DNA from: an uncultured Bacilli bacterium
GTDB taxonomy: Bacteria > Bacillota_I > Bacilli_A > RF39 > UBA660
Assembly (NCBI GenBank): GCA_947632405.1
Contig: CANRPE010000009.1
Location: 1-40,554 of the forward strand
Direction: 5' to 3'
Length of the DNA: 40,554 nt
The notes under the pieces were generated by a model that made no database searches, was not told where the DNA came from, and saw only the letters and a program-made list of their open reading frames with translations. A program made the translations under genes and the position numbers. This document shows, piece by piece, positions 1,473-10,230 of this stretch (within the stretch, counting starts at the first letter, position 1; each line of letters begins with the position of its first letter).

Positions 1473-2552
1473 ATGAGCTTTTCAAATTTAGTTAGAAGTG
1501 TAGTCAGAGCAGCATCTGACAATTATACTCATGGAAGAGATGGATATAAAATATGTAAATTTACACCACATCATATGTCAGGTGTATTAACAGGAGAACA
1601 ATGTGCTGCATTGTTTCAAAGAAGTTCTAGAGATGCCTCAGCAAATTATTGTATAGGTGTTGACGGAGGAATAGTAGGTTGTGTTGATGAAGAATATAGA
1701 TCATGGTGTTCTAGTTCTAGATCAAATGACTGCCAAGCAATAACCGTAGAAGTATCAAATTCTTCATATGGAGGAAATTGGCCGATATCTGATGCATCAT
1801 GGAATGCATTAGTTGCTTTAGCAGTTGATGTATGTAGAAGACATAATTTTAGATTAGTATATGATGGAACTCCAAATGGTAGTCTAACAAGACATAATAT
1901 GTTTAGTAACACAGATTGTCCTGGTCCATATTTACAATCTAGATTTCAAGAATTATGTAATGTTGTAAATTCGCAATTAGATGGTGGTGTTGCACCTACT
2001 CCAATCCCAGCTCCATCAGTTGGAAGAAATGTTGGAGACGTTGTAACTATTAATGGAATATTTACTTCAAGTAATTCTAATGTTCAATTACATCCAGCAA
2101 GAAATTCTGGTAGAATAACAAAAATTATACCAGGAGCATTAAATCCATATCTATTAGATAATGGTGATTTAGGATGGATTAGAGAATCTTGTATAATTGG
2201 TGCTTCAAGTTCATCTCAATCTTCAGGTAGAAAATCAAATGAACAAATAGCTGCTGAAGTATGGGCTGGAAAATGGGGTGTAGGAGAAGACAGAAAAAAT
2301 AGACTTAAAGCTGCAGGATATGATCCTAATATTATTCAAAATTTAGTTAATAAAGGTGTAGGAAAAAATGGAACAGTTACACCATCAAAATCAACTCAAT
2401 CAAAATCAGCAATTGATGTAGCTAGAGAAATTTGGACTAAAGGTAATTGGGGAACTGGTGATGAAAGAAGAAGAAAAGTGGAAGCTGCTGGTTATAATTA
2501 CTCAGAAGTTCAAAGATATGTAAATGAATTTGCATCAGGAAAAAGAAAATAA
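1473..2552 (+). CDS. Endolysin: N-acetylmuramoyl-L-alanine amidase with SH3-like and two CW_7-like repeats
   Basis: 359 residues. Residues 1-170 are a PGRP/amidase_2 domain that cuts the bond between muramic acid and L-alanine. Likely zinc ligands are H33 (in TPHHMSG), H141 (in LTRHN) and C149 (in TDCPG). A short linker is followed by an SH3-like region (about 185-243, ending GWIRESCII). Two wall-binding repeats of the CW_7 (Cpl-7 type) pattern follow at about 255-297 and 312-353, each with a W..G.WG.G..R...(V/L).AAGY core. It is the last gene before two terminators and follows the holin, so it is the lysis enzyme. Ten cysteines in the catalytic half is unusual for a secreted enzyme. Confidence 0.92.
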   Translation: MSFSNLVRSVVRAASDNYTHGRDGYKICKFTPHHMSGVLTGEQCAALFQRSSRDASANYCIGVDGGIVGCVDEEYRSWCSSSRSNDCQAITVEVSNSSYGGNWPISDASWNALVALAVDVCRRHNFRLVYDGTPNGSLTRHNMFSNTDCPGPYLQSRFQELCNVVNSQLDGGVAPTPIPAPSVGRNVGDVVTINGIFTSSNSNVQLHPARNSGRITKIIPGALNPYLLDNGDLGWIRESCIIGASSSSQSSGRKSNEQIAAEVWAGKWGVGEDRKNRLKAAGYDPNIIQNLVNKGVGKNGTVTPSKSTQSKSAIDVAREIWTKGNWGTGDERRRKVEAAGYNYSEVQRYVNEFASGKRK

Positions 2553-2570
2553 TTCAAAATGGAAACATAA

Positions 2571-2604
2571 AAGAGGATTTGTTTATACATTTCCTCTTAT
2601 TTTT
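2571..2604 (+). terminator. Terminator of the lysis operon
   Basis: AAGAGGA and TCCTCTT form a 7-bp stem with a 15-base loop, followed by ATTTTT. It sits 18 bases after the amidase stop and closes the late operon. Confidence 0.7.
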
Positions 2605-2633
2605 CGATTTTTAGCAAAATTTTCAAAATTACT

Positions 2634-2661
2634 GAAAAAACGACCTCTGAGAATCGTTTTT
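2634..2661. terminator. Second, symmetrical terminator-like hairpin
   Basis: AAAAACGA and TCGTTTTT pair around CCTCTGAGAA, with an A-run on one side and a T-run on the other, so it could stop transcription from either direction. The stem is mostly A-T, so strength is uncertain. Confidence 0.5.
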
Positions 2662-2786
2662 AAGCCATTTATATTTTTAAGGAATATAACTTGTTTATAA
2701 AAGGGGTTAAATTGCTTATATTTGATTCTCGTACGTATACGGCGATTTGGCCATTTTTAGGGGTATTTTTGGTCCTATTTTGGCCT
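2662..2786. other. Non-coding region with palindromes, before the first early promoter
   Basis: No gene seen. Contains TTTATATTTTTA, a short palindromic cluster around CGTACGTATACG (about 2729-2740) and GGCC/GGTCC boxes repeated within 35 bases (2748-2785). It separates the late lysis operon from the first early-type gene and could hold regulator sites or an origin. The sequence alone does not decide. Confidence 0.35.
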
Positions 2787-2812
2787 TTCGCGGCATAAAC
2801 ATACTGTATAAT
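2787..2812 (+). promoter_or_regulatory. CGCG-N14-TATAAT promoter 1
   Basis: TTCGCG at 2787-2792, exactly 14 bases, then TATAAT at 2807-2812 followed by GAAGAAATATTAAAAGGAG. No -35 box at the usual 17-base distance. Drives the small gene at 2841. Confidence 0.75.
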
Positions 2813-2840
2813 GAAGAAATATTAAAAGGAGTTGATTAAT

Positions 2841-3002
2841 ATGGATAAAAAATTAGTTATCGGAATTATATTAGGATGTATTATAGGAGTATTGGTGATG
2901 TTTATAGCACTTAATACTAGTACACATTCAGTTACAAAGATAAATAATAAAGTAGTGGAAGAAACTTACGAATATCCAGATTTAGTAATTAATAGAAAAT
3001 AG
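2841..3002 (+). CDS. Small single-pass membrane protein
   Basis: 53 residues, ATG after AAAGGAGTTGATTAAT. Residues 5-24 are one hydrophobic segment and the rest is polar, so it is a small membrane-anchored protein with no recognised family. It has its own promoter (2787) and is followed by the promoter of the non-coding RNA at 3032. Confidence 0.65.
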   Translation: MDKKLVIGIILGCIIGVLVMFIALNTSTHSVTKINNKVVEETYEYPDLVINRK

Positions 3003-3031
3003 GTTTAGCTAAATAAGCTATTCCTTTTCTT

Positions 3032-3057
3032 TTCGCTTAAAAAACATATTCTATAAT
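3032..3057 (+). promoter_or_regulatory. CGCG-type promoter 2 (variant TTCGCT), drives a non-coding RNA
   Basis: TTCGCT at 3032-3037, 14 bases, TATAAT at 3052-3057. No ORF with a ribosome binding site follows before the next promoter at 3172. The downstream sequence is instead structured. Confidence 0.65.
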
Positions 3058-3059
3058 GA

Positions 3060-3173
3060 GGAGATCACCCAGGTGGGTATAGCAGAGAACATTAGAAAGC
3101 CAAATTTATAAGACGTGGACGGCAGAGCTATCTTCAGATAGTAGGAACTCATATCACGCTCTCTTCATTTTTT
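3060..3173 (+). ncRNA. Candidate structured small RNA, unrecognised family
   Basis: About 110 bases between its own promoter and a T-run (3168-3173), with no ribosome binding site and no plausible ORF. Visible pairings: ACCC-AGGT-GGGT (3067-3078), CTATC-TTCA-GATAG (3128-3141), a longer-range CGTG/CACG (3113-3116 with 3155-3158), and GAGGAGA at the 5' end with TCTCTTC just before the T-run (only partly transcribed if the start is at the usual distance). ATAGC near 3080 could also pair with GCTAT near 3127, competing with the hairpin there, so two states are possible. It is more GC-rich than the surrounding sequence. I do not recognise it as tRNA, 6S, phi29 pRNA or a known riboswitch. Confidence 0.6.
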
Positions 3174-3197
3174 CTCGGTAGATACATATACTATAAT
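3172..3197 (+). promoter_or_regulatory. CGCG-type promoter 3 (variant TTCTCG)
   Basis: TTCTCG at 3172-3177, 14 bases including GATACATA, TATAAT at 3192-3197. From position 3180 on it is almost identical to promoter 4. It overlaps the end of the candidate RNA and drives the gene at 3224. Confidence 0.65.
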
Positions 3198-3223
3198 GAA
3201 GAAATAATAAGGAGGTATTTAAA

Positions 3224-3457
3224 ATGATAAAAAAATTGATGATTGAATTCACAAAATTATGTATTCGATTCATGGAGTTACCATTAATAATTAGAATAAT
3301 ATTCTCACCATTATATGTATTAACAATGATAATTTATTCAATTATTTATTATGTTATATATTTTATATGTTCTATTAAATATGGTAAAAGTGAATGGAAG
3401 AAAATACATTATAATTATATCACAGAATATTACAAAGATTTTTTAAAAGATATGTAG
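3224..3457 (+). CDS. Small membrane protein
   Basis: 77 residues with a long hydrophobic stretch (about 22-52, one or two passes) and a basic, tyrosine-rich C-terminus. No family recognised. RBS AAGGAGG nine bases before the ATG. Single-gene unit with its own promoter, and its stop codon lies inside the downstream terminator stem. Confidence 0.7.
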   Translation: MIKKLMIEFTKLCIRFMELPLIIRIIFSPLYVLTMIIYSIIYYVIYFICSIKYGKSEWKKIHYNYITEYYKDFLKDM

Positions 3458-3480
3458 GTCATTATTGGCCTATTTATTTT
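3455..3480 (+). terminator. Terminator overlapping the stop codon
   Basis: TAGGTC and GGCCTA pair (one G-U) around ATTATT, then TTTATTTT. The TAG stop of the 3224 gene forms the first three bases of the stem. Confidence 0.6.
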
Positions 3481-3504
3481 CGCGATAGATACATATACTA
3501 TAAT
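3479..3504 (+). promoter_or_regulatory. CGCG-N14-TATAAT promoter 4
   Basis: TTCGCG at 3479-3484, 14 bases, TATAAT at 3499-3504. It begins within the T-run of the previous terminator and drives the gene at 3531. Confidence 0.75.
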
Positions 3505-3530
3505 GAAGAAATAATAAGGAGGTATTTAAA

Positions 3531-3725
3531 ATGAAGAAATTTTTAATGGGAGTTTTTGCAGCATTGGGTACAATCTTAGTAGGTAAAAATATTTACAGAA
3601 AAGGTTATAACGATGGTGTAGAAGGAATTAGAGATGACTTTGAATTAATTAAAACTGGAATGGATTATAAAAATTCAGAAGATGATAAAACATCTAAAAC
3701 AACAAATAAGAAAGAGACAAAATAA
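3531..3725 (+). CDS. Small membrane-anchored protein
   Basis: 64 residues: one short hydrophobic N-terminal segment (about 4-20), then a charged Lys/Thr/Asp-rich tail. No family recognised. Own promoter and RBS (AAGGAGG). The last codons and stop form a GAGAC/GTCTC terminator, identical in design to that of the 4444 gene. Confidence 0.7.
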   Translation: MKKFLMGVFAALGTILVGKNIYRKGYNDGVEGIRDDFELIKTGMDYKNSEDDKTSKTTNKKETK

Positions 3726-3739
3726 GTCTCTTCTTTTTC
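3712..3739 (+). terminator. Terminator overlapping gene end
   Basis: AAGAGAC-AAAATAA-GTCTCTT then CTTTTTC. The TAA stop lies in the loop. Confidence 0.7.
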
Positions 3740-3741
3740 TC

Positions 3742-3767
3742 TTCGCGGCATAAACATACTGTATAAT
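3742..3767 (+). promoter_or_regulatory. CGCG-N14-TATAAT promoter 5
   Basis: TTCGCG at 3742-3747, 14 bases, TATAAT at 3762-3767. Identical to promoter 1 over the whole TTCGCG-to-TATAATGAAGAAATATT stretch. Confidence 0.75.
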
Positions 3768-3792
3768 GAAGAAATATTAAGGAGGTATTCAA

Positions 3793-4005
3793 ATGAAGAA
3801 TTTGAGAAAAAACGAAAGTGAAATAATGAAAGGATTAATTAAATTAACCAAATGTAAAACATTTAAGAATAAATTATATGCATTAGGATTAATATTATTA
3901 GGTATTATATCTGCAGTATTATTAGAAGGAGATATAACAGTATTAATATTTGTATCATTAATTGCAATACCATTATTCTTTAGTAAAGATAATTGGATAG
4001 TTTAA
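3793..4005 (+). CDS. Small membrane protein with two hydrophobic segments
   Basis: 70 residues. A basic N-terminus is followed by hydrophobic segments at about 30-44 and 48-63. Start after AAGGAGGTATTCAA. No family recognised. Own promoter (3742) and own terminator (AAGGGA/TCCCTT, which includes the stop). Confidence 0.7.
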   Translation: MKNLRKNESEIMKGLIKLTKCKTFKNKLYALGLILLGIISAVLLEGDITVLIFVSLIAIPLFFSKDNWIV

Positions 4006-4029
4006 GGGAGCAATCCCTTTCATTTTTAT
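4004..4029 (+). terminator. Terminator after the 3793 gene
   Basis: AAGGGA-GCAA-TCCCTT followed by TCATTTTTAT. The stop codon forms the foot of the stem. Confidence 0.65.
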
Positions 4030-4052
4030 TTTAAAAGAAAGGAGAATTCAAA

Positions 4053-4391
4053 ATGGAAGAAAATATTAACTTAAGTTTAACAGTTGGAAAATATGAACAA
4101 TATTTAGTTAGTGCTGATGATGTTAACATATTAGGACATAGCGGTATACATTATATTTATAAATTTCCTAATGGATATGGAGCATCTGTAGTAAAACAAT
4201 ATGGTTCAGTAGGATATTCTCAGGATTTATGGGAATTAGCTGTTATATTATTTGAATATGAAACTGACGTATTACAATTAGCAGATTATGTAATAGTTTA
4301 TCCAGAACCAATATTACATGGACAAGATGTTTTAGGTAACTTATCTGAGAAAAATGTAATAAAAGTATTAGAACAAATATACAATCTATAA
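4053..4391 (+). CDS. Conserved phage protein of unknown function
   Basis: 112 residues, soluble. The YKFPNGYGASVV motif (about 36-47) and a following ELAVI-type segment, ending in a helix (LSEKNVIKVLEQI), match a family common in Firmicutes phages with no known function. RBS AGAAAGGAG. It has no CGCG promoter of its own and is preceded by an AT box of the TTTTATTTTA kind. Confidence 0.7.
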   Translation: MEENINLSLTVGKYEQYLVSADDVNILGHSGIHYIYKFPNGYGASVVKQYGSVGYSQDLWELAVILFEYETDVLQLADYVIVYPEPILHGQDVLGNLSEKNVIKVLEQIYNL

Positions 4392-4393
4392 TA

Positions 4394-4419
4394 TTCGCGT
4401 TCATAACATACTGTATAAT
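4394..4419 (+). promoter_or_regulatory. CGCG-N14-TATAAT promoter 6
   Basis: TTCGCG at 4394-4399, 14 bases, TATAAT at 4414-4419, three bases after the preceding stop codon. Drives the gene at 4444. Confidence 0.75.
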
Positions 4420-4443
4420 GAAAACATATTAGGAGGTATTTAT

Positions 4444-4770
4444 ATGATTAAAGTATTTGAAGATTTGTATGACAATTTTACAGATAAGGAGTATAATTTC
4501 ACAGCATATAAAAGTAATGCTAATGAAATATTTGATATGATTAATAGGTCTACAACACATCATAGAATGTTTAATAAAAGTAAAGTTATTACTAATAATA
4601 TAACATTTTATACATCAATTGAAGACAATAATATCATGTACAATATTAGTGTTAATTTAAAAAGAAGTGAATGGACAAAACTATTATCTTTATGCACAAC
4701 ACACAAATATCAATTAATTATTAAAGATGATAAAAACATTATGTGTTTTATAAAGAAAGAGACAAAATAA
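4444..4770 (+). CDS. Hypothetical soluble protein
   Basis: 108 residues with alternating polar and hydrophobic segments and no membrane segment or recognisable motif. RBS AGGAGGTATTTAT. Single-gene unit with promoter 6 and a GAGAC/GTCTC terminator built into its last codons. Confidence 0.65.
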   Translation: MIKVFEDLYDNFTDKEYNFTAYKSNANEIFDMINRSTTHHRMFNKSKVITNNITFYTSIEDNNIMYNISVNLKRSEWTKLLSLCTTHKYQLIIKDDKNIMCFIKKETK

Positions 4771-4785
4771 GTCTCTATTCTTTTT
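4756..4785 (+). terminator. Terminator overlapping gene end
   Basis: AAAGAGAC-AAAATAA-GTCTCT then ATTCTTTTT, nearly the same as the terminator at 3712. Confidence 0.7.
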
Positions 4786-4809
4786 CGCGTTAAATACATA
4801 TACTATAAT
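4784..4809 (+). promoter_or_regulatory. CGCG-N14-TATAAT promoter 7
   Basis: TTCGCG at 4784-4789, 14 bases, TATAAT at 4804-4809. The T-run of the upstream terminator forms its first bases. Confidence 0.75.
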
Positions 4810-4835
4810 GAAGAAATATTATAGGAGGTATTCAT

Positions 4836-5075
4836 ATGAAGAAACATTTATACATTTTAGGAGGTATTCCAAAGAGGATTGCAGAAGATTATAAAGATAT
4901 GATTCGAGATGATATTATATTATTACAAGGTAATAATGAATATTGTGCAAGATTGTATTTAACAACTTTGCAAGCATTAAAAATAAGAATACAGATGTTT
5001 ATATGTAATATGAAATTAAGTTGTAACAAATTCACGTTAACTCGTGGAGGAGGAAAGAGATTTAGAGTCAAATAG
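4836..5075 (+). CDS. Small basic hypothetical protein
   Basis: 79 residues, basic, with Cys/Met-rich middle and a Gly-Gly-Gly-Lys-Arg end. No motif recognised. RBS AGGAGGTATTCAT, own promoter, own terminator. Confidence 0.6.
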   Translation: MKKHLYILGGIPKRIAEDYKDMIRDDIILLQGNNEYCARLYLTTLQALKIRIQMFICNMKLSCNKFTLTRGGGKRFRVK

Positions 5076-5090
5076 ACTCTATTCTTTTTC
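5064..5090 (+). terminator. Terminator overlapping gene end
   Basis: AGAGTC-AAATA-GACTCT followed by ATTCTTTTTC. The TAG stop is in the stem/loop. Confidence 0.7.
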
Positions 5091-5132
5091 TATTTATATT
5101 TTTAAATAAATTAGAAAGGAGAGTGAATACTA

Positions 5133-5357
5133 TTGCTGTATTTTGCAATTTATCTATTAGGTATTATAATTGGTGTTATTATTACAGTTATACATTATAA
5201 TTTTGAAAAAATTAATGGGGTAATTGTTGTAGATCATAAAACAGAACAATGTGTAATAAAAACATTAAGCCAAGATTTAACAGATATTAGGAAGAAACGA
5301 GCAGTATTTTATATAGACCACAATGGAAAGCTGCCGCGAGAAAATCATTCTCTATAA
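5133..5357 (+). CDS. Small N-terminally anchored membrane protein (TTG start)
   Basis: 74 residues. The TTG start is chosen because GAAAGGAGAGTG lies just upstream. Residues 2-21 are hydrophobic and the rest is a soluble tail. No family recognised. Its last codons hold promoter 8 (the TAA stop lies within the TATAAT box). Confidence 0.65.
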   Translation: MLYFAIYLLGIIIGVIITVIHYNFEKINGVIVVDHKTEQCVIKTLSQDLTDIRKKRAVFYIDHNGKLPRENHSL

Positions 5358-5358
5358 T
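5333..5358 (+). promoter_or_regulatory. CGCG-N14-TATAAT promoter 8, inside the end of a gene
   Basis: GCCGCG at 5333-5338, 14 bases, TATAAT at 5353-5358, all within the last codons and stop of the 5133 gene. Drives the gene at 5400. Confidence 0.65.
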
Positions 5359-5399
5359 GAGAACATGAGTTCATTTATATTTTTTAGGAGGTATACGAG

Positions 5400-5763
5400 A
5401 TGGAAAAAATTAAAGAAGCACTGTGGCAAAATTATGAAGAAGTGAACGATTTATTAGAAGGAATCGATGTTTCATCAAATGAGTTCAGAAATCTTACTGA
5501 AGAACGAGATAAAATTCGTAATGAATTAATCGAACTTGAACGACTTAATCAGGAAACTGATGTAAAAGTAACCCAGATTGAGTGTGAAAATGTTAGAGAA
5601 AAAATTCGTAACGGAATTAATATTCGGAACTTTTATTGTAAGTACGACTGTAACTGTATTTGCTATAACAAAGACATTCAAATTTGATCAAGTAGCAACT
5701 GTAACTAGCACATTGGGTCGAAATATTTTAAATAGCGTAGTACCTAAAATGGGTAAACGATAA
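5400..5763 (+). CDS. Coiled-coil membrane protein, reconstructed across a CGG +1 site
   Basis: Plain reading stops at 5687. The in-frame CGG at 5625-5627 (INI-CGG) with its C skipped joins a 75-residue acidic coiled coil to GTFIVSTTVTVFAITKTFKF and a basic end (TAA at 5761), 120 residues in all. The joined protein has a cytosolic coiled coil and one membrane segment (about 76-91). Without the skip the tail is a Cys/Tyr-rich stretch with no hydrophobic run. RBS AGGAGGTATACGAG. Promoter 8 upstream, strong terminator downstream. Confidence 0.65.
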
Positions 5764-5776
5764 TATTCTCAGTATC

Positions 5777-5811
5777 AAGACAGTATATAAGAAAAATACT
5801 GTCTTATATTT
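5777..5811 (+). terminator. Strong intrinsic terminator
   Basis: Perfect 10-bp stem AAGACAGTAT/ATACTGTCTT with a 9-base loop, then ATATTT, which leads straight into promoter 9. Confidence 0.8.
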
Positions 5812-5835
5812 CGCGTTAAATACATTGGCTATAAT
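5810..5835 (+). promoter_or_regulatory. CGCG-N14-TATAAT promoter 9
   Basis: TTCGCG at 5810-5815, 14 bases, TATAAT at 5830-5835. Drives the gene at 5863. Confidence 0.75.
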
Positions 5836-5862
5836 GAGAAGATATTAAGGAGGTAAATTAAA

Positions 5863-6045
5863 ATGTTTCTATTTTTAGCATTATTATTAATTTTAGTATT
5901 ACTTATAGCTTTTATATTGATAACAATATCAGTATTTGGAGCTGGATTTATAGTAGTATTTGGAGATGTAATAGTTTGTATTGCTATTATAGTATTTTTA
6001 ATTAAGAAAATATTCTTTAAGAAAAAGAAGAATAAAAACAAATAA
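5863..6045 (+). CDS. Very hydrophobic small membrane protein
   Basis: 60 residues, two closely spaced membrane segments (about 2-22 and 25-50) and a Lys/Asn tail. RBS AAGGAGGTAAATTAAA. No family recognised. Its size and shape would also fit a holin-like or small toxin-like peptide, but nothing in the sequence proves that. Own promoter and terminator. Confidence 0.65.
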   Translation: MFLFLALLLILVLLIAFILITISVFGAGFIVVFGDVIVCIAIIVFLIKKIFFKKKKNKNK

Positions 6046-6057
6046 AACTAAAGGGTG

Positions 6058-6090
6058 AAGTATAGTAATTATACTTTGCTTTTTATTTTT
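6058..6090 (+). terminator. Terminator before the DUF6353-like cluster
   Basis: AAGTATA-GTAAT-TATACTT then TGCTTTTTATTTTT. Confidence 0.7.
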
Positions 6091-6124
6091 ATAGATATTT
6101 TAAAAGAAAGGAGAAGATATATTC

Positions 6125-6856
6125 ATGAATAAAATGCAATATTTATTAAAGAAGTATTCACCATTTATTTTGACAACTTTGGGTGCTATAGGAACAGTTA
6201 CGACTACAGTTTTAGCAGTTAAAGCAACACCAAAAGCTTTAAAACTAATTAATAATGAAGAAAATTCTAGAAATGAATATTTATCAAATATAGAAAAAGT
6301 CAAAATAGCTTGGAAACCATATATTCCAGCAATAATTAGTGAAATAGCAACTGTAACTTGTATTTATGGTGCACATTTTCTTAATCGTAAGAGTCAAGCA
6401 TCTTTAATTTCTGCATATGCATTCTTAGATAATAGTTATAAGGAATATGTAGCTAAAACTAAAGAATTATATGGAAATGATGCTGATTCTAACATAAGAA
6501 AATCTATAGCAGACGATAAAAATAGTGAAAAACATTTATTAAAAGAAAATAATCAATTATTCTTTGATTATGAAACTTTGCGATATTTTGAAAGTACAAT
6601 CAATAATGTTTTAAAAGCTGAAAATCAGTTAAATCAAGAGTTTGCAGCAAATGGATTAGTAACTTTAAATGATTTTTATAAACTTTTAGGACTAGATCCT
6701 GTTGATTTTGGTAATGAAATAGGATGGTATGATGAAGGCGAATATTATGAAATTGAATTTGAGCATCAAAAGATAACTATGGATGATGGATTAGAATGTC
6801 ATAGTATAGACTTTATCACAGCACCTAATATGTTACCATTTGTATCGCGTTATTAA
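6125..6856 (+). CDS. DUF6353-like two-pass membrane protein, copy 1
   Basis: 243 residues. N-terminal membrane segment ending in the family signature TVLAVKATPKAL (about 28-39), then KIAWKPYIPA and a second membrane segment (about 62-80), a long helical region, and a C-terminal module with LVTLNDFYKLLGL...GW. The same architecture occurs in the genes at 7082 and 9286. DUF6353 is widespread in Firmicutes phages with unknown function. A role in remodelling the host membrane would be inference. RBS AGAAAGGAG. Promoter 10 begins within its last codons. Confidence 0.75.
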   Translation: MNKMQYLLKKYSPFILTTLGAIGTVTTTVLAVKATPKALKLINNEENSRNEYLSNIEKVKIAWKPYIPAIISEIATVTCIYGAHFLNRKSQASLISAYAFLDNSYKEYVAKTKELYGNDADSNIRKSIADDKNSEKHLLKENNQLFFDYETLRYFESTINNVLKAENQLNQEFAANGLVTLNDFYKLLGLDPVDFGNEIGWYDEGEYYEIEFEHQKITMDDGLECHSIDFITAPNMLPFVSRY

Positions 6857-6869
6857 CTATCCCTATAAT
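6844..6869 (+). promoter_or_regulatory. CGCG-N14-TATAAT promoter 10
   Basis: ATCGCG at 6844-6849 (last codons of the previous gene), 14 bases, TATAAT at 6864-6869. The ribosome binding site AAAGGAGG starts two bases after the box, so a transcript starting at the usual distance would begin inside it. Confidence 0.65.
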
Positions 6870-6885
6870 GAAAGGAGGAATACGG

Positions 6886-7050
6886 ATGAAAAAAATTAAT
6901 TCAAAAAGTATTATTGGTCTAGCAGTAGCTGGTATAGCTGGTATAGTAGCTTTTATATCAAATATTCAAGATCAAAAGAAAGAAGAAAGAATTAACAATA
7001 TGGAAGAACGTATTAAAACTTTAGAAGAAAATAATAAAGAGGCTGAATAA
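6886..7050 (+). CDS. Small membrane-anchored coiled-coil protein
   Basis: 54 residues. Start at 6886 is chosen for its spacing from AAAGGAGG. An upstream in-frame start would lie on the ribosome binding site. One hydrophobic segment (about 8-26) and a charged helix. No family recognised. The stop lies in the downstream terminator. Confidence 0.65.
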   Translation: MKKINSKSIIGLAVAGIAGIVAFISNIQDQKKEERINNMEERIKTLEENNKEAE

Positions 7051-7065
7051 GCCTTTTAATTTTTT
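7040..7065 (+). terminator. Terminator overlapping gene end
   Basis: AGGCT-GAATA-AGCCT followed by TTTAATTTTTT. Confidence 0.65.
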
Positions 7066-7081
7066 GAGAAAGGAGAATAAA

Positions 7082-7852
7082 ATGAACACGAAATTAGCAA
7101 ATTTGTTTAAATCAACAAGAAATTTTATTGGAAAACATAGTCCAGAAATTTTAACAGGAATTGGTATAACAGGTCTACTTACGACTACAGTTTTAGCAGT
7201 TAAAGCAACACCAAAAGCTTTATATTTGATTGAAAATGCAAAAGAAGATCAAAATAAAGATAAATTAAAACCTGTAGAAGTAATAAAAATAGCTTGGAAA
7301 CCATATATTCCAGCAGGATTATTAGCAATAGCTAGTACATCATGTATAGTTGGAGCTAGTTCTATTAATTATAAAAGAAATACAGCTTTAGCAACAGCAT
7401 ATGCTATATCTGAAAGAACATTAGTAAGATATAGAGATAAAGTAATCGATACTTTAGGCGAAAGAAAAGAAAAAGAAATAAAAGAAAAAGTAGCACAAGA
7501 AGAAGTAAATCAAAATAGAAAACAGGATAATACAGTAATTATAACTTCAAAAGGAAATACTTTATGTATGGATTCATTCTCAGGAAGATATTTTAGATCA
7601 GATATTGATTCTATAAAAAAGGCTATAAATAAATTAAATAGAGAATTAACATATAATCAATATGTATCTTTGAATGAATTATATGGAGAAATTGGTTTAG
7701 ATGATATTAAAAATGGTTCAATATTAGGTTGGAATTTAGATTCAGGACTTATAGAACCAGAATTTAGTACTTGTTTAGCAGATAATGATGAACCTTGTGT
7801 TGTTATTGATTATACTGTAGGACCAAGATATGATTTTGATAAATTAATGTAA
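7082..7852 (+). CDS. DUF6353-like two-pass membrane protein, copy 2
   Basis: 256 residues, ATG at 7082 after GAAAGGAGAATAA. Closely related to the 6125 product: the N-terminal ILTGIGITGLLTTTVLAVKA segment, KIAWKPYIPAGLLAIA with the second membrane segment, and a C-terminal YVSLNELYGEIGL...GW module. At DNA level, about 39 bases around ACGACTACAGTTTTAGCAGTT are identical to copy 1, which points to recent duplication or gene conversion. Confidence 0.75.
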   Translation: MNTKLANLFKSTRNFIGKHSPEILTGIGITGLLTTTVLAVKATPKALYLIENAKEDQNKDKLKPVEVIKIAWKPYIPAGLLAIASTSCIVGASSINYKRNTALATAYAISERTLVRYRDKVIDTLGERKEKEIKEKVAQEEVNQNRKQDNTVIITSKGNTLCMDSFSGRYFRSDIDSIKKAINKLNRELTYNQYVSLNELYGEIGLDDIKNGSILGWNLDSGLIEPEFSTCLADNDEPCVVIDYTVGPRYDFDKLM

Positions 7853-7858
7853 TTAAAA

Positions 7859-7884
7859 TTCGCGTTATTTTCATACGCTATAAT
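7859..7884 (+). promoter_or_regulatory. CGCG-N14-TATAAT promoter 11
   Basis: TTCGCG at 7859-7864, 14 bases, TATAAT at 7879-7884. The leader to the next gene is longer than usual (about 45 bases). Confidence 0.75.
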
Positions 7885-7933
7885 GAAGAAATAATAAATT
7901 TCTAAATATTAAATTTTTAAGGAGGTAGTCGTT

Positions 7934-8209
7934 ATGTCAAAGACTAATGAAACAGAAAAATTAGAGAAAGAGGTTGTTGTTAACGAAACAGAAGAAAATA
8001 CTGAGTTAACAGTTCCACAAGAAGGAGAAACTGGAGAGGTTAAAGAATCTAAACTTAAGAAAGCTGGAAAAATAGCTCTTAAGGTAGCAGCTTTAGCAGG
8101 AGCCGGAATCGTAGGATTTATATTAGGAACAAAAACTAGTAGTAAGAGTGAAGCAACAGAAGTTGAATATGAAGTTTCAGATGGACCAACAGACATCGAA
8201 GAAAATTAA
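7934..8209 (+). CDS. Acidic protein with one central membrane segment
   Basis: 91 residues: acidic N-terminal 45 residues, KLKKAGKIALK linker, one Ala/Gly-rich membrane segment (about 55-70), acidic tail. RBS AAGGAGG eleven bases upstream. Unknown family. Own promoter and terminator. Confidence 0.7.
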   Translation: MSKTNETEKLEKEVVVNETEENTELTVPQEGETGEVKESKLKKAGKIALKVAALAGAGIVGFILGTKTSSKSEATEVEYEVSDGPTDIEEN

Positions 8210-8947: not shown

Positions 8948-9313
8948 TTGGATACATCAGAATATTATAATACTAAATATTTTGGTTTTGATACTTTTTC
9001 AGAAGCTGATAGAATAAGAAAAGCAGCTTTTGAAGTATTAAAAGAACAGGGATATTTAACATTATATGATGTATATTGTTTAATATATAAACAAGAAGTA
9101 AATTATCCTGATATTTATAAAAGACATGGATGGTTTAAAATTGATATTTTGGAGATAACGGATGGAATAGATACCAGATATTATGATAATAAATCTTATA
9201 ATTTTCATGTCTGGTTTCTAAGATTTCCGTTACCACAAAATATTGAAGATAGAATAAGATACAAAGAAAAGGAGAATGATTTTAAATGGAAACAAAAATA
9301 TTTAACAAAATAA
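8948..9313 (+). CDS. Small protein with the same GW module (TTG start)
   Basis: 121 residues from a TTG at 8948. GAGGTGA lies seven bases before it, whereas a GTG at 8939 would sit inside the ribosome binding site. It is essentially only the shared module: SEADRIRKAAFEVLKEQGYL, LYDVYCL, then RHGWFKID. It overlaps the next gene by 28 bases. Confidence 0.65.
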   Translation: MDTSEYYNTKYFGFDTFSEADRIRKAAFEVLKEQGYLTLYDVYCLIYKQEVNYPDIYKRHGWFKIDILEITDGIDTRYYDNKSYNFHVWFLRFPLPQNIEDRIRYKEKENDFKWKQKYLTK

Positions 9314-10230
9314 CAAATGCTACTGGAAAAATTGGTTTAGTTCTGAAAAAACATAGTCCTGAAATATTCATGGTTGCTGGTGTTGTTGGTACTGTTGCTA
9401 GTACAGTATTGGCATGTAAAGCAACATTAAAAGTAAATGATATTTTAGAAGAAAAGAATGAAAATGTAGGAAAAATACATGAATGTCTTGATAGTGAGAA
9501 TCCAAATTATACAGAAGAAGATGGTAAAAAAGATTTAACAATTGTTTATACACAAACAGGTGTAAAATTAATTAAATTATATGCCCCAGCAATAGCTTTA
9601 GGGACTTTATCTATAGCTAGTATTGTATCTGGTCATAAGATTCTTAAAAAAAGAAATATTGCTCTTGCAGCAGCTTATCAAGTTGTTGATAAAGGTTTTA
9701 AAGACTATAGAAAAAATGTAGTTGATAGATTCGGAAAAGATATTGATAGAGAATTAAGATATAATATTAAAGCTAAAGAAGTAGAAAAAACAGTTGTCGA
9801 TAAAAATGGAAAAGAAAAGAAAGTTAAAGAAACAGTATTAGAAGTTGGTAATCCAAACGGATATATTAGTGAATATGCTAGATTCTTTGATGAATGGAAT
9901 AGTGATGCACATACAAAAGATCCAGAATATAATTTAATGTTCTTAAGAAGACAACAAGATTATGCAAATGAAATGTTAAAAAGTAGAGGACATTTATTTC
10001 TTAATGAAGTTTATGATATGTTAGGAATACCAAGAACTAAAGCTGGACAGGTTGTTGGATGGATTTATGATGAAAAGAATCCAAAAGGAGATAACTATGT
10101 AGACTTCGGAATTTATAGACTTGATGGAGATGATATACACAATGAAAGAAAAATGGCTTTTGTAAACGGACAAGAAAGAAATATATTATTGGATTTCAAT
10201 GTAGATGGTCCAATATATGAATTAATTTGA
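9286..10230 (+). CDS. DUF6353-like two-pass membrane protein, copy 3 (longest)
   Basis: 314 residues. HSPEIFMVAGVVGTVASTVL and ACKATLK form the first membrane segment and signature. LIKLYAPAIALGTLSIASIV is the second. The C-terminal module reads HLFLNEVYDMLGIPRTKAGQ, then VVGWIYD and a D-rich end, the most typical DUF6353 member in the window. Start after AAAAGGAGAATGATTTTAA inside the previous gene. Ends in TGA. Confidence 0.8.
   Translation: METKIFNKITNATGKIGLVLKKHSPEIFMVAGVVGTVASTVLACKATLKVNDILEEKNENVGKIHECLDSENPNYTEEDGKKDLTIVYTQTGVKLIKLYAPAIALGTLSIASIVSGHKILKKRNIALAAAYQVVDKGFKDYRKNVVDRFGKDIDRELRYNIKAKEVEKTVVDKNGKEKKVKETVLEVGNPNGYISEYARFFDEWNSDAHTKDPEYNLMFLRRQQDYANEMLKSRGHLFLNEVYDMLGIPRTKAGQVVGWIYDEKNPKGDNYVDFGIYRLDGDDIHNERKMAFVNGQERNILLDFNVDGPIYELI

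Follow-up and report, generated by a model that had tools for sequence, protein, structure and literature searches.

The window analysed here, 40,554 nt long, is one complete contig (CANRPE010000009.1, C9) within the 1.35-Mb assembly GCA_947632405.1 of an uncultured Bacilli bacterium, and it encodes a phage, with genes for a holin, an endolysin, DUF6353 proteins, a DNA polymerase/primase, a large terminase and a portal protein. In its early region, extending from the endolysin gene to the first DUF6353 gene, small genes are mostly provided with their own promoter copy, and the promoter-like elements of positions 2700-8000 form a family of nine copies. The copy at 3034-3057 (CGC-N8-CA-N5-TATAAT; forward strand, as are all window features given below) leads to non-coding sequence, instead of a ribosome-binding site (RBS) and a gene. 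This sequence, a predicted non-coding RNA of about 109 nt at 3058-3166 with diverged homologues in related phages, is the subject of the present report. It ends at a U-run (3168-3173) that probably serves intrinsic termination behind a helix closing the RNA, a T-run being present in the other full members of the family as well, and the next promoter copy follows immediately past the U-run (3173-3198) and serves the gene at 3224-3457. We set the start of the RNA at the first G past TATAAT; sigma70 geometry would shift it some 6-7 nt downstream of 3058.

The original prediction of a small RNA of about 110 bases, devoid of an open reading frame (ORF) and framed by its own phage promoter and a T-run, agrees with these features: ATG is absent from the RNA, and its two GTGs open only 12 and 8 codons. 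As had also been claimed, the element is more GC-rich than its neighbours, with 44.9% GC at 3060-3166 versus 26.1% across 2500-8000, a value reached by none of the 5181 other 107-nt segments of that region and by 128 of 40,234 across the whole window. The Rfam 15 scan of the window gave no match at gathering score (the best sub-threshold match had 23.3 bits against a gathering score of 67), nothing above threshold was found at the RNA position in three homologue loci, and neither ARAGORN nor Rfam detected a transfer RNA (tRNA) in the window RNA, in line with the proposed structured RNA of unknown class. With its own promoter, its own terminator and no conserved ORF, the element has the attributes of an independent phage non-coding RNA gene with a predicted transcript, and we regard its reality as practically certain.

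Homologues were discovered by synteny. A DUF6353 protein search led to genomes G285, G307 and G329, and a family search in the order led to G390, where a gap survey revealed a homologue (L179) directly behind the endolysin region, on the same contig (CAMNRN010000002.1) as L190. In viral contigs a single DUF6353 protein yielded no match, whereas an alignment query succeeded, giving 78 loci from genome contigs and 80 of 450 relatives from viral contigs; these loci yielded members L298, L330 and L265. A relaxed pattern of the RNA core added L347/L348 (seven stretches, of which four were true, representing three distinct members, and three were coding chance matches), while a second relaxed pattern returned 11 stretches, four already known and seven coding chance matches. 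Direct searches with the window RNA recovered no homologue: its DNA had no match in 50,697 phage records or in 72,556 plasmids, blastn against 193 genomes of the family gave short chance matches only, exact patterns of its core matched nowhere else, and the core with up to three mismatches recovered the window alone from 386 genomes.

There are thus six distinct full members (the window, L179/L190, L298, L330, L347/L348 and L265), diverged from each other and all residing in related phages. A model (R1) built from their alignment A3 and searched over 3.57 Mb (85, 81 and 92 sources) matched all six at E 1e-14 or better, the window with 104 bits, scores that hold by construction since these members built the model. 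The best match outside them, L284 (E 0.011), has the promoter fused straight to the RNA's 3′ half and is evidently a decayed copy. The R1 matches at L266, L310/L196, L326 and L164 (E 0.016-0.4) were coding- or terminator-like and were excluded from the count; weaker matches, at E 0.5-0.9, form no part of it either. Full-length model matches therefore occur in 6 of 166 sources, plus one relic, and most related phages lack an RNA of the window type, indicating that it is accessory and can be lost and replaced; its gene neighbours also vary among homologues.

The strongest evidence for a conserved structure comes from P2, a short helix of GCC (3099-3101) and GGC (3121-3123), whose columns were set by the MAFFT alignment A3 with invariant flanks (AGAA-GNN-AAAU ... 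ACGNC). Its pairing is intact in all 18 cells of the six members, and one of its pairs appears as C-G in one member, A-U in two, U-A in two and G-C in one. The P2 covariation score of 0.756 compares with a shuffle mean of 0.264, two of 500 shuffles being equally high, and falls to 0.000-0.089 when the arms are slid by one to three columns. The closing helix P1, formed by GAGGAGA (3058-3064) and TCTCTTC (3160-3166), is the end-to-end pairing that had been suggested from the window alone, and it is kept in the homologues: 46 of 46 hand-placed positions are paired in the members' own arms, as opposed to 182 of 208 with arms exchanged between members. When four helices were taken jointly, the observed total was reached by the true assignment alone among 720 arm assignments, a test biased by the hand-picking of the P1, P1b and P4 arms, with P2 being fixed by the alignment.

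Behind P2 lies the P4 hairpin CTATC-TTCA-GATAG (3128-3141), followed by a conserved RGRAAC. The corresponding segment forms a hairpin in the members though its sequence differs in each, and the summed energy of the seven homologous segments, the relic included, is -35.2, versus -13.6 (standard deviation (sd) 4.1) for shuffled segments, with none of 2000 shuffles as low; singly, L265 and L179 are striking, L298 is not, and most segments are non-significant. Of the two hairpins in the original prediction, P4 is therefore retained in homologues, and the other, ACCC-AGGT-GGGT (3067-3078), turned out to be an insertion specific to the window and outside the family core. The proposed mutually exclusive ATAGC/GCTAT pairing likewise proved confined to the window and occurs in none of the five homologues. 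An ACAU/AUGU helix of some minimum free energy folds was rejected, being broken, as judged by eye, in the window, L347 and L179. Comparison of homologues, put forward at the outset as the way to check the RNA, revealed compensatory changes in a helix at alignment-fixed columns, which argues for a new structured RNA family; the family, together with its P2 and P4 structure, appears highly probable from these alignments.

The RNA occupies a slot in which related phages exchange RNAs. Its left boundary in the window is the endolysin gene (Amidase_2 and CW_7 domains; 1473-2552), and its right boundary is the first DUF6353/phrog_2152 gene (6125-6856; PF19880 match at 6146-6826). A pattern search of 162 related loci found 749 promoters, 663 of which lead to an RBS-led ORF; the transcripts without such an ORF numbered 50 after removal of duplicates, and some of these, coding stretches for example, are false positives. 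In this unselected set the duplex between the 5′ and 3′ ends came to -5.95 kcal/mol for own ends and -3.99 kcal/mol (sd 0.27) for swapped ends, with 0 of 200 swaps as low; energies of RNAs pre-selected for end pairing were left out of this evidence.

Many of the slot RNAs are tRNA-like. ARAGORN called 41 tRNA-like genes behind the promoter, in 39 loci and with 32 distinct sequences, none of which encodes CCA and 23 of which lack a 7-nt anticodon loop. At other places in these loci there are 19 distinct tRNA-like genes, 12 encoding CCA and two without the loop; both of these loop-less exceptions sit behind a TTTAATG variant of the promoter, which the script left unscored. Several of the slot RNAs are confirmed by the Rfam tRNA model (RF00005) with 40-60 bits; the anticodon arm is capped by UUCG in L194 and by GUAA in L331, and the slot RNA of the human gut phage MT835485 (L182), which ARAGORN did not call, is one that we take to resemble tRNA-Gly. 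Having no CCA and mostly no 7-nt anticodon loop, these RNAs would act as mimics rather than decoders; since the elbow (D- and T-loops) is preserved in them and it is the anticodon arm that varies, recognition by their targets would rest on the elbow or on the acceptor/T stem.

The slot RNAs are diverse in other respects. At L309 (6791-6867, forward strand) a T-arm lies ahead of a D-arm between a phage promoter and a U-run, and this tRNA-like RNA is apparently circularly permuted. Two others (L204 5031 and L252 5150) have a UUA anticodon according to ARAGORN and, if charged, would read the stop codon UAA. A further group (L315 2963, L224 4375, L287 6234 and L325 2815) shares segments of the type GGCAACG...CGGG..GACCC, and the RNAs of L315, L224 and L325, the three compared with Rfam, resembled no family (L287 was outside that comparison). 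L230 (2960) and L329 (2899) have in common GATGGTAA..GCGATGAAGATTAAGAGTCAAACC, and the RNA of L227 (5063) consists of two similar halves of about 45 nt within a single closing helix. In close relatives of the window phage, a slot RNA with an arm of the GGCAGGTGATGTTGCC type is found at L161 (minus strand, ~6590-6690), L199 (5508), L320 and L192. The second RNA of phage Shiba has homologues in cultured Arthrobacter phages: with the promoter included in the query, 59 records matched, 49 of them over at least 80% of the query, and the RNA was unannotated under most of the matches listed. For phages of the Shiba/Stayer group its position is ~28.1-28.5 kb. As these phages bear unannotated RNAs of the same kind, the question is accessible at the bench.

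The promoter framing these RNAs appears to be linked to a phage-encoded polymerase. In the assembly containing the window, the pattern CGC-N8-CA-N5-TATWATG has ten matches, every one on this contig, and the reversed-pattern control has none. The ORF at 30650-33661 matches phrog_4291 (1096 bits, E 0), a family named 'RNA-dependent RNA polymerase' in PHROG, which we take to be a single-chain DNA-dependent RNA polymerase of the YonO/crAss type; it carries a GADFDGD motif, the DFDGD portion of which was also read in the polymerases of relatives, and phmmer found no relatives of it in PDB. Such a polymerase is encoded in 25 of 38 viral records picked by the promoter motif alone and in none of eight controls, in three of four records holding homologues of the window RNA, and in 17 of 19 genomes or records chosen for DUF6353 or the slot. 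This co-occurrence suggests that the motif is the likely promoter of the DFDGD-type enzyme, a link that we consider somewhat better than an even bet from the sequence comparisons made. In most slot RNAs the closing helix extends to the first base past TATAAT, as might be expected if the RNA began at that base and not 7 nt further on. Two related phage contigs of G307 (C6 and C24) contain repeats of TGTGACACTTTT.

Taken together, these data suggest a structured non-coding RNA that would be produced early in infection as its own transcription unit, whose promoter is probably recognised by the DFDGD polymerase of the phage itself. P1 would pair the RNA ends directly ahead of the U-run, so that the closing helix may double as a terminator stem and seal the RNA; the small P2 hairpin would display a conserved loop, AAAUU-UAAGA--UGGAC, and be followed by the variable P4 hairpin and the conserved RGRAAC. 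The slot appears exchangeable: in related phages it is filled by different RNAs with closed ends, of which many are tRNA-like, without CCA and probably without a working anticodon. The window RNA may offer its conserved unpaired surface to a protein or ribonucleoprotein (RNP) of the host or of a defence system, on which it would act as a decoy or inhibitor. Because the conserved residues are mainly unpaired and are identical across phages of different hosts, a protein partner would be favoured over a single mRNA target. To this role, as an effector or decoy directed at a host factor or a defence factor, we assign a probability of about 0.5. A host-RNA mimic and an anti-defence RNA were among the roles first envisaged, and these two would fit best with the tRNA-like RNAs in the same slot; a protein as the target, and a part played in counter-defence or takeover, would be guesses.

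Several observations weigh against this interpretation. The minimum free energy of the window RNA is indistinct from that of shuffled sequences (z +0.75 and -0.75; -0.62 for the opposite strand), making single-sequence energy uninformative, so that the structured status rests on comparison. Only six full members are known; support for helices P1b and P3 is weak, and the window member has P3 out of register. G307 has a polymerase gene (in a frame with TAA) and DUF6353, yet no CGC promoter motif, and the co-occurrence of promoter and polymerase could result from shared ancestry alone. In a start-site test on the first 7 nt, applied to 39 of 40 hand-picked RNAs (one was dropped for want of a given 3′ arm), swapped partners paired nearly as well as the true ones; promoters of mRNAs likewise have purine-rich bases just past TATAAT, so that the pairing of these 7 nt does not prove where the RNA starts.

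Among the alternatives, a small RNA that base-pairs with host or phage mRNAs or with ribosomal RNA would account for the long unpaired stretches that are conserved and for the promoter-to-terminator layout typical of such RNAs; the persistence of those stretches across phages of different host groups makes this rather unlikely. Binding and regulation of the phage or host RNA polymerase, in the manner of 6S RNA or of an aptamer, is suggested by the viral contig IMGVR 3300029305_000181, in which an RNA of the window type lies outside the slot, some 1 kb upstream of the gene for the DFDGD polymerase, and the slot holds a tRNA-like RNA instead (L306 6242). Such placement is seen in only one of the five homologues, however, most relatives bearing the polymerase are without the RNA, and the window RNA has neither a match to the 6S covariance model or to any other Rfam family nor a fold like the long 6S rod with its central bubble, and we judge a polymerase regulator to be unlikely, slightly more so than a base-pairing RNA.

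The position of the RNA directly upstream of the gene at 3224-3457 could also make it a cis element, i.e. a 5′ leader or attenuator of that gene. Since the gene is served by the second promoter copy at 3173-3198, right past the U-run, and the neighbours differ among homologues, there is little to recommend this explanation. A packaging RNA, also raised in the original prediction, or else a structural RNA of the virion, has an analogue in the packaging RNA (pRNA) of phi29, a small phage RNA with paired ends. The window RNA differs from it in its accessory distribution, in the packaging motor of its phage, which has a large terminase with a nuclease domain and no motor of the phi29 type, and in having no Rfam match to pRNA, rendering such a role very improbable. 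A decayed or chance sequence devoid of function, as might be supposed from the missing energy signal and the decayed copy at L284, is hard to hold given the compensatory changes, the GC contrast, and the promoter and terminator kept in diverged members, and is the least credible possibility.

Two other features of the surroundings deserve mention. Non-coding sequence 3′ of the endolysin gene (2621-2770) is 71-85% conserved in L320, L264, L213, L199/L161, L192 and L265, and could be an origin, a packaging site or a regulatory site. DUF6353 is represented in the window by three paralogues (6125-6856, 7064-7852 and 9286-10230), and the family, which has no assigned role, ranges from phages of Arthrobacter, Gordonia and Streptomyces to gut phages; the term 'DUF6353' has zero occurrences in open-licence PMC papers, a collection with subscription papers and preprints mostly outside its coverage.

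The effector or decoy reading can be extended, tentatively, to the whole clade. These gut and soil phages may keep a dedicated, fast-exchanging early locus for RNA effectors under promoters of their own DFDGD polymerase, with cassettes comprising anticodon-deficient tRNA mimics, in which the acceptor stem would serve as the terminator, and several folds of unrelated kinds, the window RNA being one; each cassette would mimic or inhibit an RNA-binding machine of the host. If this is true, the slot locus would be the RNA counterpart of anti-defence protein islands. Whatever the function, the analysis adds a structured RNA family with covariation, set in a recognisable slot where phages swap RNAs, and the slot survey exposes tRNA-like RNAs, most of which would be unable to decode. 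Within the same open-licence PMC coverage, no literature on RNAs of the window type or of the slot was found.

Comparison with known systems shows that the slot neighbours share the D- and T-arm with tRNA (RF00005, with the 40-60 bits given above), whereas the window RNA itself is not tRNA-like. The pseudo-tRNA 'tRNA-Other' of Bacillus cereus is a tRNA-like RNA outside ordinary decoding, a likeness that concerns the slot neighbours and not the window RNA. Phage tRNAs are reported to evade retrons (PMC11555353), and small RNAs made by phages against tRNA-directed defence are an established principle; the slot RNAs differ in lacking CCA and, mostly, a 7-nt anticodon loop. The RNA-based anti-CRISPRs (Racr) are small phage non-coding RNAs that mimic a host RNA and block a defence RNP (PMC10651486), and they provide a functional analogy for the slot; no sequence likeness to CRISPR repeats is claimed. 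Finally, the polymerase of the window phage, with its DFDGD motif, would be kin to YonO, the single-chain RNA polymerase of SPbeta. According to the YonO paper (PMC5467207), the promoter sequence recognised by that enzyme was still to be determined, and the motif proposed here for the window phage enzyme would offer a testable candidate promoter for phage RNA polymerases of the DFDGD type.
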